IMG/VR virus record: IMGVR_UViG_3300030118_000809
Coordinates: 1-32,435 of that record
Origin: a virus
Length of the DNA stretch: 32,435 nt
Strand: one strand, 5' to 3'
Of the stretch, positions 7,117 through 32,435 are shown one piece after another (position 1 is the first letter of the stretch; each line of letters starts with the position of its first letter). A program made the position numbers and the translations under genes. The notes under the pieces were generated by a model. That model was given only the letters and a program-made list of their open reading frames with translations, was not told the origin of the DNA and searched no databases.

Positions 7117-7704
7117 TTAAAAAAAAGATTCTTGAGCTGGGCTAACCAATTTATTTGTTTTTTTATTTATAATATAATCAATGGCTATTTTCATTTCTTG
7201 TTCATTGTTATTACTTAACAAAGAATGCTCCCATTTATTTTTTATATTATTTACTGTGGTTCTTTTAGCATTTAACCATTTTTCAGTTTGATTGTCTCCC
7301 CTTTCAACATGTCTGTTCTTTTTTATTTCTTCATCTGCTTTTAAAATAATTAATCTAAAGTTTATTGGCAGCTCACACATAAATTGTATTAAACTTGGTT
7401 TAAAAAGTCTATCACCTTCTAACAAAACATGTTTATTGTCTTTTTTGTTCTTTATGTAATCAATAAATACTGGCTGAACCGCCATGCTTAACCGATCTGT
7501 GCCATCAAATAAATTATTTTCATACAATCCAGCAACAACATAATCATTGCTTTGATGACCCTTTAACAACTTTTTGTGTTCAAAGTTTTTATTTATTTTA
7601 AAATCTTTTATTATTTTTCTCATAATTGTTGATTTTCCAGAGCAAGGCTCACCGCCAATTAACGTTAAATCAAAATAGTTTTTTGTTTGCCTAAAATAAT
7701 TCAT
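7117..7704 (-). CDS. P-loop kinase of the hypermodified-base (5-hydroxymethyl-dU DNA kinase) type
   Basis: A 195-residue P-loop protein. Walker A is GEPCSGKST at residues 18-26. GTDRLSMAVQP lies at 68-78 and a Walker B-like HVLLEGDRLF at 92-101. The lid region has arginines (RHVERGDNQTEKW, then KRTT). The GTDxLSM and EGDRLF pair fits my memory of the base kinases of thymine-hypermodified phages. Those enzymes phosphorylate 5-hydroxymethyluracil within DNA to give a leaving group. The helical domain sometimes fused to such kinases is absent here. The gene overlaps the transferase gene by 14 bases and closes the modification cassette. The exact substrate is inferred from the neighbours; a generic nucleotide or polynucleotide kinase is the alternative. 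Confidence 0.75.
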   Translation of the reverse strand: MNYFRQTKNYFDLTLIGGEPCSGKSTIMRKIIKDFKINKNFEHKKLLKGHQSNDYVVAGLYENNLFDGTDRLSMAVQPVFIDYIKNKKDNKHVLLEGDRLFKPSLIQFMCELPINFRLIILKADEEIKKNRHVERGDNQTEKWLNAKRTTVNNIKNKWEHSLLSNNNEQEMKIAIDYIINKKTNKLVSPAQESFF

Positions 7705-8590
7705 AGTTATTTAACTCCTTTAACACTTTTTTAGGAAAATATTCTTTTCTGTAATCCCAAAGAGGACTCCAATTTACACCCTCTTTCACGTTACATTGCA
7801 TTTTATAAATCTCTTTTCTTTGTCTTTCAACATAATATCCCACATATCTTTTATTATTTTTTTTATATTTTTTATAAGCACATAAACTTGTTTCTATTGC
7901 CCAAACATTAGTGTCATGAGGTCTTTTGTTTTTTATTTTCTCATAAAGCAGCCAAAATTGTTCTGTCAAATAATCGTAGTGCTTTTGATTTAATTTTTCT
8001 TTTCTGTTATAACTTATTAAATCGTCCCTTCCCAAAGCATAACACAACCCATTTCTTGATGATTTTGCATTTTTTAAGTCCAATCCATTAGGTTCTATGG
8101 GGTAACCAGTTAAGTGATGTATAATATCTAAATAAATAAACATAGTAAACCTACCCATTTGATAAACTTTCATAAACTCGTTAAAACAATTTTTATAAGT
8201 TTGATGTTTATCACTAGTTTTTAAAGTTTGAAATTTAATAACCTGTTTTTCTCCAACTATATTTTTATAAGATTTTACAATTTGTACAAACAAATTTCTA
8301 CTTCTTATCCAAGCTCTGTCCGTAGTAAATATTAATTTTTGTTTGTTAGCAAACCACCATCTTTCCATTCTATTAAAATCTATTAATTCATAATCTGGAA
8401 ATTCATTAAATATGTAATAAGCTGTTGCACCGCAGTAACAAGTTGAGTACAAAAACCCCAACCAATATCTTTGTTCCAGTGTAATGTCAAATCTATTCGC
8501 AATGTAAAGCAGGCAGCTGTTTGCTGGGTCTGTATCCCCATTGCTCATCATCTGGATATGATAGTTTATGTAATCTTCTTTTCTGTTCAT
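7691..8590 (-). CDS. Amino acid:DNA transferase-like protein (alpha-glutamyl/putrescinyl thymine pyrophosphorylase family)
   Basis: A 299-residue alpha-helical protein. The stretch DPANSCLLYIANRF, then LEQRYWLGFLYSTCYCG and YYIFNEFPDY, followed by RMERWWF and TDRAWIRSRNLF, matches my recall of this transferase family. The C-terminus has WSPLWDYRKEYF. Characterised relatives replace the phosphate of activated hydroxymethyl-thymine in DNA with an amine or amino acid (glycine, putrescine or glutamate, depending on the phage). Here it lies between a glutamine amidotransferase and the base kinase, the expected partners. Its start overlaps the amidotransferase by 98 bases. A later ATG (8551) would shorten the overlap but lacks a better ribosome site, whereas GAGAT precedes 8590. 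The family call is from memory. Confidence 0.68.
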   Translation of the reverse strand: MNRKEDYINYHIQMMSNGDTDPANSCLLYIANRFDITLEQRYWLGFLYSTCYCGATAYYIFNEFPDYELIDFNRMERWWFANKQKLIFTTDRAWIRSRNLFVQIVKSYKNIVGEKQVIKFQTLKTSDKHQTYKNCFNEFMKVYQMGRFTMFIYLDIIHHLTGYPIEPNGLDLKNAKSSRNGLCYALGRDDLISYNRKEKLNQKHYDYLTEQFWLLYEKIKNKRPHDTNVWAIETSLCAYKKYKKNNKRYVGYYVERQRKEIYKMQCNVKEGVNWSPLWDYRKEYFPKKVLKELNNYELF

Positions 8591-9209
8591 TTAATATCTC
8601 ATAATTGTATATTTTTAATGGTTTTGTTGGTTCAGGATTGTTTAAACCCGATCTAATTAAAATATCCGAAGTGGAGGCAACAAAGTATGTATTTTTAAAT
8701 CTGCTATAATACATAGGTCTTAAATTGTTTCTTAACAAAAAAACTTTGTTTTTATTTATGTATAATCCAGCAAAAGAAATGTTTTTATTGTCCACAAATT
8801 GAATGGCTTTATCTATGTTATGCAAAAAAACTTCTCCATCATTTTCTGTTTTTAATTTTAAATCAAATTGTTTTTCCATCTCTTTCTTTGTTTTCATGCT
8901 AATAACACCATTAAACACCAAAGAATTATTATTTAACAATATTGGCTGATTGTTTTTATGTTTCTTCCAATCACCGCTAGTGCTGTACCTATTATGAAAA
9001 ATATATTCTTTTGTTACGTTTTTTGCAAAATAATCTAAACATTTTTCTATTTTGTGAAATTTCTTTGTTATTATTTTTTCATCAGCAATGTAACTCAAAC
9101 CAAAACTATGCACACCTCTAATAGCAGATTCTTTCATTACCCTTATGGCAAATCTTTTTTCTTCTAAGTTTAATTTTTTTTTAGATAAAGTTGTTGCTAT
9201 ACCGCACAT
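8493..9209 (-). CDS. Stand-alone class II glutamine amidotransferase (Ntn hydrolase)
   Basis: A 238-residue single-domain enzyme that should release ammonia from glutamine. All glutaminase landmarks of the GlmS/PurF type are present. C2 follows the start methionine (MCGIATT) and becomes the N-terminal nucleophile after methionine removal. R31-G is in RGVHSFG, HNRYSTSG has R74, FNG has N100-G101, and D124 is in ENDGE. RNNLRPMYY at 160-168 matches the usual RDxxRPL element. No synthase domain is attached, so ammonia must pass to a partner, most simply the transferase encoded by the overlapping next gene. The start forms TAATG with the dioxygenase stop. Ammonia transfer to a modified base is inference. 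Confidence 0.82.
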   Translation of the reverse strand: MCGIATTLSKKKLNLEEKRFAIRVMKESAIRGVHSFGLSYIADEKIITKKFHKIEKCLDYFAKNVTKEYIFHNRYSTSGDWKKHKNNQPILLNNNSLVFNGVISMKTKKEMEKQFDLKLKTENDGEVFLHNIDKAIQFVDNKNISFAGLYINKNKVFLLRNNLRPMYYSRFKNTYFVASTSDILIRSGLNNPEPTKPLKIYNYEILNEQKRRLHKLSYPDDEQWGYRPSKQLPALHCE

Positions 9210-10117
9210 TATAAAATGCCATCAATATATCTTTGACCAATAGAACGCTCTTGAATCTGAGCTTTTTTTAATTCTTCAGATGGTTTTAAACATTTGTACA
9301 TTTTTTTTCTATAATACATAACAAAAGACAACCTAACCGCATTTTTTGTTTTTTTTATTATTTCAGTATTTCCATGAACTTGATGAACATCAACCAACAA
9401 CAAATCGTTAGAATCAATATTTATTGCTATGCCAAATTTAGGCAAGACCAAATAAACAGGCTCAATATCTCTGCAGTAAGCAACTAAATTTCCAAACCCT
9501 TGCGGATAATCTCCAGCATCCGTATGAAAAGTTGTTCTATAATCTTTGTTTACTGTAATGGTTGAAAAAGCAGTATTGCCAATTCTATAATATGGGTCTG
9601 TTCCTAAAACCATTTTGTATTGTTTTTCATATCTATCTGGGACAATTTCTTTGAATCCATAATTTACTGCTTCAATCAAAGGCATTGCTTTTTCAAATTT
9701 TTCTTTTTGATTCATATTAAATGCTGTTTTTCTGCAGTAATTATCTCTACCGCTTGGATCAAAAAATCCTGTAATGCCACTCAAAGGCAATTTTTGTTCC
9801 CCAGTAATTTTGTCTACTGTAACCATAGTTCTAGACTTTTTACCATCTTTTCGTATCAATGCTTCTCTTGACGCACCACTACTTATCCCCCTGTTTGAAG
9901 TTGGTTTAGCAGCGTATTTCATGTTTTGATATGCTTGTTCTAAAACTTCTTTTTTAATATAATTTTTTCTTAAAAAAAATAAAGGGTTGCCATAATAATC
10001 GTAACAATTTGCATCTTCATCTACTATTGTATCATAATGTTTTTGTGAAGCGTATTCATTTAACAACTTTTTAGTTTCGTTTTCAGTAAGTTTATATTCT
10101 GCTTTTATGTTTTTCAT
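9209..10117 (-). CDS. TET/JBP-family 2-oxoglutarate/Fe(II) DNA base dioxygenase
   Basis: A 302-residue enzyme predicted to hydroxylate the 5-methyl group of thymine or 5-methylcytosine in DNA. The iron ligands are H198 and D200 in TTFHTDAGD and H248 in VHQVHGN, and R262 (VRLSF) would hold 2-oxoglutarate. The order and spacing match the JBP/TET dioxygenase core. The motif GDYPQGFGNLV after HxD is typical of the family. So are the N-terminal SNRGISSGA block (75-83) and GITGFFDPSGRDNYCRKTAF (114-133). No DNA cytosine methyltransferase is encoded in the genome, so thymine is the likelier target. It heads the four-gene cassette of overlapping genes and overlaps the small gene upstream by 26 bases. 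Confidence 0.85.
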   Translation of the reverse strand: MKNIKAEYKLTENETKKLLNEYASQKHYDTIVDEDANCYDYYGNPLFFLRKNYIKKEVLEQAYQNMKYAAKPTSNRGISSGASREALIRKDGKKSRTMVTVDKITGEQKLPLSGITGFFDPSGRDNYCRKTAFNMNQKEKFEKAMPLIEAVNYGFKEIVPDRYEKQYKMVLGTDPYYRIGNTAFSTITVNKDYRTTFHTDAGDYPQGFGNLVAYCRDIEPVYLVLPKFGIAINIDSNDLLLVDVHQVHGNTEIIKKTKNAVRLSFVMYYRKKMYKCLKPSEELKKAQIQERSIGQRYIDGIL

Positions 10118-10316
10118 ATTCTTTTTTTATAATTTTTATTAACAAATCTGTATAATTATCTATTTTATAAACTGATAACAAAAACTCAAGTTTAATTAAA
10201 AATTGTTTTTTTTCATTTTTTGCAAAACTAATTTTCCAACTTTCAATATCAGTTTGCTCTATTTCTCCTGTTTTTTCATCAGGAAAAATATCAAATAATG
10301 TTTCTTGTTCTTGCAT
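10092..10316 (-). CDS. Hypothetical protein, 74 residues
   Basis: An acidic N-terminal half (MQEQETLFDIFPDEKTGEIE) followed by a helical, lysine-rich C-terminus (LIKIIKKEYEKHKSRI). No family is recognised. A GGAG site lies just before the ATG, and the end overlaps the start of the dioxygenase gene, so it belongs to the modification operon. The QxxLFDIF stretch resembles short peptides that bind sliding clamps (QxxLFxF-like). If so it could tether the cassette to the replisome, but the motif is short and this is only a suggestion. Confidence 0.6.
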   Translation of the reverse strand: MQEQETLFDIFPDEKTGEIEQTDIESWKISFAKNEKKQFLIKLEFLLSVYKIDNYTDLLIKIIKKEYEKHKSRI

Positions 10317-10318
10317 GA

Positions 10319-10756
10319 CTAATCTCCAAATAAAGTGTTTTCTGGATTTTTAAATGTAAATTTTTGCATTTTTTTATTTGATTTGGTAAAAGATAAGCCA
10401 TTTTCTTTAAAACCAATTGATTTGTAAAAATTATTTGATTCAATATTGTCATAATCGGTTTTTAATTCAATAGGTTTGCCAATATGTTTAATCAATTTTT
10501 TTCCATAACCTTTTCTTTTATAATTGTCATGAGTTGCTATTTCATAAATTACATTAACCCTATCTCTGTATCTACACAAATAATGACAAAAAGCTATTTT
10601 TTCTATTACAATCCAATTTTCATTTGGTTTATTATTCTCCCAAAATCTTTTCCACTGCAACGATCCATAGCCTTTCCCACCTAATATTACCTTGTTCAAA
10701 CTAAATATTTCTAAAATCCAATCTTTATCTTTTTTAATAGCTTTTCTTATTTTCAT
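10319..10756 (-). CDS. GNAT-family N-acetyltransferase
   Basis: A 145-residue acetyltransferase. The acetyl-CoA phosphate-binding turn is KRKGYGKKL at residues 80-88, after the strand VIYEIATHDNY, and the family's C-terminal NNFYKSIGFKENG lies at 108-120. The substrate is unknown. GNAT enzymes appear among the hypermodification genes of phage M6-type genomes, and this one is two genes upstream of the dioxygenase. A role in acetylating or remodelling an aminated base is therefore possible. Protein acetylation or host-factor inactivation are equally open. It overlaps the preceding gene by 23 bases and has a weak ribosome site, suggesting coupling. Confidence 0.78.
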   Translation of the reverse strand: MKIRKAIKKDKDWILEIFSLNKVILGGKGYGSLQWKRFWENNKPNENWIVIEKIAFCHYLCRYRDRVNVIYEIATHDNYKRKGYGKKLIKHIGKPIELKTDYDNIESNNFYKSIGFKENGLSFTKSNKKMQKFTFKNPENTLFGD

Positions 10757-11147
10757 AATTTTTTATTTTAATATCTAATTCAGTTTCTGTTATTTTCCCA
10801 TCTCTTAAATCCAAACCCCATTCCCACAACTTATTTACTAATCCTGTGGGCTGCTCCTGTTTTTTTCTAACGTCATGCTGATGATTTTGTTTTTCAATTC
10901 TGTTGCTCATCAATACATTATAAATCTCTTTCATCTTTGGCAACCTTCCAGACATCTGACCATTTGGCAAATCACACATAAATACAATATCTTTCCAGGA
11001 TTTTTTTACAGTATCAAAGGAAAATTTCATTAATAATTGACAAAACTCATTAAACATTGACTGATTATTGCCTTTTATTTCAAGCATTTCATATAAATCA
11101 TTTACATAAAATTCAGCTTGTTGTGAACTGCATTTTTTTTCTGACAT
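10734..11147 (-). CDS. Putative helicase-loader-type replication protein
   Basis: A 137-residue helical protein located just after the replisome organizer gene. Its FNEFCQLLMKFSFDTVKKSW and DLPNGQMSGRLPKMKEIYNV resemble the small helicase-loader / G39P style, where a W-containing helix precedes a proline-led helix. Position argues the same, since phage initiator and loader genes are usually adjacent (lambda O-P, SPP1 38-39). An upstream ATG at 11159 is possible, but GGAG sits six bases before the ATG at 11147. The similarity is weak and the call is mostly contextual. Confidence 0.45.
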   Translation of the reverse strand: MSEKKCSSQQAEFYVNDLYEMLEIKGNNQSMFNEFCQLLMKFSFDTVKKSWKDIVFMCDLPNGQMSGRLPKMKEIYNVLMSNRIEKQNHQHDVRKKQEQPTGLVNKLWEWGLDLRDGKITETELDIKIKNYENKKSY

Positions 11148-32063: not shown

Positions 32064-32435
32064 TTAGTCTTTGTTTCTGATTTTAATACCACGCTTGTTA
32101 TCAGTGTCATCAATTCTCTTTACGCCATACAATAAGTCTGCAACGACTTTAGTACCTAACGCATCAATTGAATATTCTGACTGTACACGAACCTCTTGTT
32201 GTACTGCAATAGCACAAGCAGTGCGGTGAAAAATAGCACCAGAGATTGTATTTGCATTGCCACCAGTTCCAAAAGAATTAGACATATAAACATCCATTCC
32301 ATATAAAGAACCTACCATGCCAGAACGCAATCCACGATTACCTTCGCCAACTGCATCATTTCTGATAAAGTACTGAGCAATACCAGATGCTGGATTTAGA
32401 ATGTCTGCAAATAAAGTTGGATTAACAACCATAGA
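32064..32435 (-). CDS. Major capsid protein, C-terminal part (same gene as 1-624)
   Basis: This is the tail of the capsid gene that begins at 624. The first 32 codons repeat the codons at the other end of the window, and the remaining 90 residues (from RGLRSGMVGSLYGMDVYMSN) finish the protein at a TAA. The segment contains the beta-rich P-domain and A-domain stretch typical of HK97-like capsids, ending KRGIKIRNKD. The methionine of MVVNP is internal, not a start. The terminal base at 32435 would change an alanine codon (GCT) to serine (TCT) relative to the left copy. That could be a population variant or an assembly edge error. Confidence 0.88.
   Translation of the reverse strand, partial: SMVVNPTLFADILNPASGIAQYFIRNDAVGEGNRGLRSGMVGSLYGMDVYMSNSFGTGGNANTISGAIFHRTACAIAVQQEVRVQSEYSIDALGTKVVADLLYGVKRIDDTDNKRGIKIRNKD
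32337..32434. repeat. Terminal overlap of a circular contig, right copy
   Basis: Right-hand copy of the 98-base overlap described at 1-98. Only the final base of the window (32435) departs from the left copy. Confidence 0.95.

Follow-up and report, generated by a model that had tools for sequence, protein, structure and literature searches.

The window, by which we mean the whole stretch of 32,435 nucleotides analyzed here (IMG/VR record IMGVR_UViG_3300030118_000809), is the complete circular genome of a small, marine-type phage, with an end repeat of 98 bp. It contains a cassette of about 3.6 kb and five to six genes in all (Table 1). Four of these encode, in order of transcription, a TET/JBP dioxygenase, a glutamine amidotransferase (GAT), a homolog of the amino acid:DNA transferases (ADDT), and a P-loop kinase; the ORF coordinates, all on the minus strand, agree with the place and order given in a preliminary description of this DNA, and all four family names proposed there were matched in Pfam. 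That description took the four genes to be the complete unit. The genes stand, but the unit is larger and also includes a GNAT acetyltransferase gene just upstream, which had been overlooked, and a 74-aa ORF (ORF74). Overlaps amount to 26 nt between ORF74 and TET, 1 nt between TET and GAT, 98 nt between GAT and ADDT, and 14 nt between ADDT and the kinase. The genes are under purifying selection (dN/dS of 0.07–0.10 relative to locus L006), and the gene block is found again in dozens of contigs; together these observations show that it is not a chance assembly. The system is widespread in IMG/VR.

Table 1. Genes of the cassette in the window, in order of transcription
Feature	Position	Strand	Length	Basis of assignment
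GNAT acetyltransferase	10319..10756	-	145 aa	Acetyltransf_7; profile match to PaMx11 gp48
ORF74, ParB-C-terminal-like, directly before TET	10092..10316	-	74 aa	HMM match
TET/JBP-family 2OG/Fe(II) dioxygenase	9209..10117	-	302 aa	Pfam Tet_JBP; TET2 profile match; invariant residues
Stand-alone class II (Ntn) glutamine amidotransferase (GAT)	8493..9209	-	238 aa	GATase_6; PurF profile; fold; residues
ADDT homolog, all-helical	7691..8590	-	299 aa	Pfam ADDT; PDB profiles; fold
P-loop kinase	7117..7704	-	195 aa	Ploopntkinase3; conserved motifs

The dioxygenase falls inside the TET/JBP family, matching Tet_JBP (PF12851) with an E-value of 2e-22 (79.6 bits, cut-off 34.9), and its family profile also picks out the PDB entry for human TET2 (E = 8e-4). 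The HxD...H...R motif previously read from this protein is borne out by 113 relatives, in which the Fe(II) residues H198, D200, and H248 and the 2OG arginine R262 are invariant. We propose that the enzyme hydroxylates thymine in DNA. On our reading of the alignment, residues D203 and R270, which are nearly invariant here, align with N1387 and H1904 of TET2, respectively, but the alignment is weak and the resulting case for thymine over 5-methylcytosine (5mC) suggestive at most, so we gave it no weight. The HMM for ORF74 aligns with the C-terminal end of ParB_N proteins of greater length, for example those of locus L139 and Pelagibacter phage HTVC112P (gp17). ParB-like proteins of this kind stand before TET in relatives. 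ORF74 is a possible partner of the dioxygenase.

The GAT scores just above the Pfam cut-off of 27 for GATase_6 (E = 4e-6, 27.2 bits), its family profile matches the PurF glutaminase domain (E = 1.5e-10), and its AlphaFold model (pLDDT 88.9) matches the GlmS/PurF glutaminase (Foldseek E = 5e-10). The catalytic residues had been described as intact, and indeed the glutamine-site set C2, R74, N100, G101, and D124 does not vary among 21 divergent members. The class II amidotransferases known so far usually form a fusion or a complex with their synthetase. The GAT stands alone, its constant neighbor is ADDT, and no GAT-ADDT gene fusion was found in any of the fetched loci. It is proposed to donate nitrogen from glutamine.

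The helical protein likewise belongs to the transferase family suggested for it. It matches Pfam ADDT (PF18724) with an E-value of 6e-18 (65.8 bits, cut-off 26.2) and CBA120 orf248 with an E-value of 4e-43, while its family profile matches PDB entries 25qc (E = 3e-6) and 8z2m, a glycinyltransferase (E = 7e-4). The best matches to its model (pLDDT 94) are 8z2n/8z2m (probability 1.00, TM 0.57–0.62, Foldseek E = 0.007), making the top fold match gp46 of phage PaMx11, a 5-phosphomethyl-dU glycinyltransferase. The PDB matches for TET, ADDT, and GAT came from deeper family alignments; when the query was one sequence or an alignment of little depth, none of the three gave a PDB match. Based on family and model, ADDT may displace phosphate from 5-phosphomethyl-dU, and its closeness to gp46 fits the order of hydroxylation, phosphorylation, and amination envisaged in the preliminary description.

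The kinase is assigned to Ploopntkinase3, also the family of the TET-adjacent kinase in actinophages, by a match marginally above the Pfam cut-off of 27 (E = 2.7e-6, 27.5 bits). A Walker A motif, GGEPCSGKST, and conserved GTDxL, EGDR, R135, and Q139 recur in 83 relatives, and PaMx11 gp49 is matched weakly (E = 0.01). We rejected the PHROG label "terminase small subunit," as that match covers the P-loop part only, and propose a 5-hydroxymethyluracil DNA kinase. The GNAT matches Acetyltransf_7 (E = 9e-10) and, by profile, the acetyltransferase PaMx11 gp48 (E = 9e-10); it is a candidate for N-acetylation of the newly made amine.

The set recurs, sometimes reordered, in 87 distinct ADDT loci, 72 of which encode a GAT. 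Observed gene orders include TET-GAT-GNAT-ADDT-KIN, GNAT-TET-GAT-ADDT-KIN, TET-GNAT-GAT-ADDT-KIN, and P-loop-GAT-ADDT-TET. GNAT is confined to loci with a GAT (43/72, versus 0/15 without), and in 37 of the 43 it has GAT on one side and ADDT on the other. It was undetected by profile in the other 29 GAT loci, some of which stop at a contig edge, so acetylation may not be universal; L139 carries a diverged GNAT-like gene. Four loci (L091, L131, L154, and L160) lack a GAT and instead encode, between ADDT and the kinase, a homolog of the flavin-dependent lyase (PDB 8z2o/8z79, E = 8.5e-8; PaMx11 gp47, E = 7e-18), a gene absent from the window cassette. GAT and lyase are mutually exclusive (72 versus 4 of the 87 loci, both in none) and differ in position, the GAT preceding ADDT and the lyase following it. 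On the ADDT tree, labels for GAT, lyase, or neither are clustered, requiring 3 changes compared with a mean of 10.4 after shuffling. A TET-associated glycosyltransferase (TAGT), also absent from the window cassette with its ADDT and kinase, occurs within 3 kb in 39/47 TET loci without ADDT but in only 1/104 with it, which sets ADDT and kinase apart as a second branch that departs from a shared hydroxylated base.

The family assignments are solid by sequence and structure; the reaction steps we infer from the families, the chemical order, and the gene swaps. Taken together, they make it probable that the cassette is a post-replicative thymine-hypermodification system acting by hydroxylation, phosphorylation, glutamine-fed amination, and acetylation. 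TET/JBP would convert the 5-methyl group of thymine in DNA to give 5-hydroxymethyl-uracil, and the kinase would make 5-phosphomethyl-uracil. The ADDT homolog would then let a nitrogen nucleophile replace the phosphate, with glutamine nitrogen delivered via the GAT to form 5-aminomethyl-deoxyuridine, and the GNAT would place an acetyl group on the amine. An aminomethyl-uracil product, raised as a possibility in the preliminary description, is independently suggested by the GAT-less sister cassettes with the PaMx11 lyase homolog. With an acetyltransferase in the set, the pathway more likely ends in N-acetyl-aminomethyl-uracil. Protection of the phage DNA against host nucleases is the probable role of the modified base.

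The preliminary description found neither a hydroxymethylase nor a C5-methyltransferase, and both absences are upheld in the complete window genome. There is likewise no match to thymidylate synthase/hydroxymethylase (PF00303) in 44 related IMG/VR records. A hydroxymethylase considered for L062, which has GAT-ADDT-KIN and no TET match, is unsupported, with no PF00303 on its 99.6-kb contig; this locus also has a gene without a Pfam match between ADDT and GNAT. Cytosine is a rather improbable alternative as the modified base, with TET oxidizing host-made 5mC to 5hmC before phosphorylation and amination. Such a route would accord with the first characterized phage TETs, whose substrate is 5mC (Burke et al. 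2021, as cited in PMC11404850 and PMC12730594), and with a C5-methyltransferase (PF00145) in 4 of the 44 related records, but that enzyme is sporadic there (missing from 40/44) and absent from all 11 cultured phages with related TETs, and the structurally solved ADDT relative acts on phosphomethyl-deoxyuridine.

Starting from thymine, nitrogen may be delivered in more than one way. We put at about even the chance that the glutaminase feeds ammonia directly to the transferase on the phosphorylated DNA base, converting thymine to (N-acetyl-)5-aminomethyl-uracil wholly after replication and with no modified nucleotide pool. It is possible, though unlikely, that ADDT instead adds a whole amino acid such as glutamine and that the GAT-like Ntn hydrolase cleaves or deamidates the adduct, in which case the pathway might still end in 5-aminomethyl-uracil, or else in a glutamyl-type adduct. 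Amino acids are indeed what the ADDT-type relatives with PDB entries transfer (glycinyltransferase 8z2m). Among the structural matches of the GAT model is also EgtC, whose Ntn hydrolase activity is directed at gamma-glutamyl amides, and in the sister cassettes the lyase homolog suggests that a group is first added and then trimmed; however, the full amidotransferase residue set is invariant, and the nearest sequence matches of the GAT are the ammonia-supplying glutaminases PurF and GlmS. Far less probable still is that GAT and GNAT merely share an early operon and do other work, for example in nucleotide or cell-wall metabolism. Stand-alone class II GATases do occur in other phages, such as PaP3-like ones, but here the GAT accompanies ADDT in divergent loci and several gene orders, GNAT is restricted to GAT loci, and ADDT clades track GAT presence.

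Known phage thymine hypermodification starts from hydroxymethyluracil made at the nucleotide level, with amino acids as the nitrogen source, and we know of no characterized enzyme that uses ammonia from glutamine for such an amination of a base within polymeric DNA. If direct glutamine-fed amination is correct, thymine would be modified wholly on finished DNA, by a previously uncharacterized route to a base modification that conceals the phage DNA from the defenses of bacteria, and phages would exchange the module that delivers nitrogen but retain the hydroxylation, activation, and transfer steps. This reading would also predict phage TET enzymes that oxidize thymine. Such enzymes would be of interest as equivalents, in viruses of bacteria, of the base J enzymes of trypanosomes, and as a means to place aminomethyl handles on thymine in DNA. 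In the preliminary description, no phage with exactly the four-gene set was known to have been characterized. The GAT version was not found in any cultured phage, but the TET-ADDT-kinase core is present in cultured actinophages, so what looks new is confined to the version with GAT and GNAT; mention of a GATase neighbor is possible in Iyer 2013, Lee 2021, Burke 2021, and Wen 2024.

The ViI/CBA120-type kutterviruses, which carry 5-(2-aminoethoxy)methyl-uracil, share the ADDT homolog with the window, and the part of CBA120 that was retrieved showed no partner GAT. They are thought to start from 5hmdU built in during replication (PMC6449724), whereas in the window TET would act on DNA. The TET of Nonlabens phage P12024L is 42% identical to that of the window, and this phage also lacks a C5-methyltransferase; unlike the window, with its ADDT and kinase, it has a TAGT next to TET, so its hydroxylated base is probably glycosylated rather than aminated. 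In Gordonia phage AnarQue and Rhodococcus phage Tonitrus, genes for ParB-like, TET, ADDT, and Ploopntkinase3 proteins are adjacent and close to terminase, as in the window type, while Mycobacterium phage Stinger (genus Coopervirus) has TET and kinase only. The actinophage clusters resemble the window in having no C5-methyltransferase but differ in having no GAT or GNAT and in their distant TET and ADDT; their fifth gene encodes a Rossmann-like protein, and a flavin-lyase identity was not established for AnarQue gp5 or Tonitrus gp8. Pseudomonas phage PaMx11 encodes the glycinyltransferase gp46, the flavin-dependent lyase gp47, the acetyltransferase gp48, and a TS-type protein, gp51, which we take to make hydroxymethyluracil at the nucleotide level, in contrast to the hydroxylation on DNA by TET proposed for the window. 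Wen et al. 2024 NAR (cited in PMC11946847) name its products, N-alpha-GlyT and 5-NmdU, in their title. The two phages have in common a homologous transferase, a related acetyltransferase, and the predicted product class, 5-aminomethyl-dU; PaMx11 obtains its amine by glycine addition followed by flavin lyase cleavage, whereas the window has a glutaminase in place of the lyase.

The preliminary description had placed four genes on the minus strand, reading from 10117 down to 7117; all four ORFs are present there, and Pfam assigns each to the expected family. The 74-aa ORF and the GNAT acetyltransferase are joined to this cassette by overlaps or a 2-base gap. The ORF lacks a ParB_N domain and matches the C-terminal part of the ParB-like proteins encoded ahead of TET in relatives. 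Relative to the closest relative (L006), dN/dS is 0.07-0.12 for the five cassette enzymes, which are therefore functioning genes. GAT and ADDT share 98 nt of coding sequence (window 8493-8590) in the clade to which the window belongs; the GAT tail encoded there, EQWGYRPSKQLPALHCE, is identical in locus L017 and absent from the majority of other GATs.

Cassette genes of the window and the ORFs adjoining them
Feature	Position	Strand	Assignment or location
TET dioxygenase	9209-10117	minus	Pfam Tet_JBP, E 2e-22
GAT (class II glutaminase)	8493-9209	minus	Pfam GATase_6, E 4e-6, just above cut-off
ADDT (amino acid:DNA transferase)	7691-8590	minus	Pfam ADDT, E 6e-18
Kinase	7117-7704	minus	Pfam Ploopntkinase3, E 2.7e-6, just above cut-off
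74-aa ORF	10092-10316		directly upstream of four-gene block
GNAT acetyltransferase	10319-10756		directly upstream of four-gene block; acetyltransferase match E 9e-10; family related to PaMx11 gp48 acetyltransferase, E 9e-10

In GAT, C2, R74, N100, G101, and D124 are invariant among 21 divergent members; the family profile matches the PurF glutaminase domain (E 1.5e-10), and the AlphaFold model (pLDDT 88.9) matches the GlmS and PurF glutaminases as well as the Ntn hydrolase EgtC. The sole convincing structural match of the ADDT model (pLDDT 94) is gp46 of Pseudomonas phage PaMx11, a 5-phosphomethyl-dU glycinyltransferase (8z2n/8z2m; probability 1.00, TM 0.57-0.62, Foldseek E 0.007). Profile searches agree (25qc, E 3e-6; 8z2m, 7e-4), and the family also matches CBA120 orf248 (E 4e-43). 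TET has invariant catalytic residues and a weak, correctly registered match to human TET2, while the kinase conserves Walker A and further motifs. The kinase region (E 5e-15) is contained in PHROG phrog_800, labelled terminase small subunit; as the kinase directly precedes terminase genes in several cassette loci, this label may stem from fusion or mis-annotation.

The window, an entire IMG/VR record, carries an exact 98-bp end repeat (bases 1-98 = 32337-32434). Once its ends are joined, a 298-aa ORF (624 down to 32067, minus strand) is recovered that by eye resembles the capsid-like ORF of locus L007. The 32,336-bp phage genome is therefore complete and circularly permuted, although its record lists neither end repeat nor completeness. 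Terminase, tape-measure, and tail-fibre genes are present, and the terminase shares no more than 42% identity with the phage-collection terminases listed.

An ADDT scan of IMG/VR yielded 155 relatives; the 80 best loci were retrieved, and a TET scan added more. Counts are based on 87 loci with different ADDT sequences. GAT is found in 72 of these, a flavin-enzyme homologue instead in four, neither in 11, and both together in none. Each of the 53 loci whose flanks are long enough has a TET gene nearby. GNAT occurs in 43/72 GAT loci versus 0/15 other ADDT loci. Gene order varies: TET-GAT-GNAT-ADDT-KIN (36 loci), TET-GAT-ADDT-KIN (15), GAT-ADDT-TET (nine, including L071, with a P-loop gene and a ParB-like gene upstream), GNAT-TET-GAT-ADDT-KIN (five, the window's type), and TET-GNAT-GAT-ADDT-KIN (one). 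These shuffled orders of the same genes argue for one shared function. On the ADDT tree, the GAT, flavin-enzyme, and neither labels cluster (3 changes versus 10.4 in shuffles). One 99.6-kb contig (L062) has a GAT-ADDT-GNAT-kinase set without a TET hit; between its ADDT and GNAT lies a 306-aa gene (10082-10999) with no Pfam match, which may encode a divergent oxygenase.

A gene swap gives the strongest indication of the product. PaMx11 encodes the glycinyltransferase gp46, the flavin-dependent lyase gp47, the neighbouring acetyltransferase gp48, and gp51, annotated as a thymidylate synthase; the title of Wen et al. (2024) names the products of this PaMx11 route. Four sister cassettes within the window's family lack GAT and have a gp47 homologue between ADDT and kinase. 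In the simplest reading both versions would end in 5-aminomethyl-dU: the flavin-lyase version would add glycine and then cleave it, the GAT version would use nitrogen from glutamine, and GNAT would acetylate the amine. The modified base probably has a protective role. The complete genome encodes neither a PF00303 thymidylate synthase/hydroxymethylase nor a PF00145 C5-methyltransferase, bearing out the absences noted previously. Because no hydroxymethylase is encoded, TET acting on DNA would supply the hydroxyl needed by the kinase. The families, catalytic residues, conservation, gene swap and missing alternative enzymes are direct observations, from which thymine as substrate, the step order, delivery of ammonia, acetylation of the product and protection are inferred.

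Thymine is favoured as the TET substrate, since a C5-methyltransferase occurs in only 4/44 IMG/VR relatives and is absent from the window and from all 11 cultured phages whose TETs are related, and the ADDT relative of solved structure has a deoxyuridine derivative as its substrate. 5mC supplied by a host methyltransferase could instead be the substrate.

Other TET neighbourhoods differ. A TET-associated glycosyltransferase lies beside TET in 39 of 47 TET loci without ADDT, and also in Nonlabens phage P12024L (L002 6001-8266), which encodes no C5-methyltransferase. This pairing predicts glycosylated hydroxymethyluracil, a base-J-like modification, of which none has been reported in phages (PMC6449724). 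An Actinomycetota MAG contig (L169 6282-10499) reads ParB, TET, ADDT, a 353-aa gene, kinase, terminase; the 353-aa product has no Pfam match, resembles by eye a PLP-dependent enzyme of the ACC-deaminase type, and may represent a third type of tailoring enzyme alongside ADDT.

Among cultured phages, the arrangement nearest to a glutaminase-bearing cassette is that of Arthrobacter phage Kharcho (L173 1-7406), where a class II GATase and a carboxylate-amine ligase lie about 4-5 kb upstream of ParB-TET-kinase (the GATase at about 4 kb), with no ADDT hit within the fetched region. TET-initiated systems such as TET-ADDT-kinase were reportedly predicted by Iyer et al. in 2013, and Lee et al. in 2021 reportedly showed thymidine hypermodification that draws on amino acids and involves flavin lyases and acetyltransferases. 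Neither the phage collection nor the literature searched, which did not extend to those two papers, yielded a TET-ADDT-kinase cassette that includes a stand-alone glutaminase. The cultured actinophages Gordonia AnarQue and Rhodococcus Tonitrus have TET-ADDT-kinase clusters like the window's core, and ADDT and the cassette kinase are already Pfam families; the core idea is therefore known.
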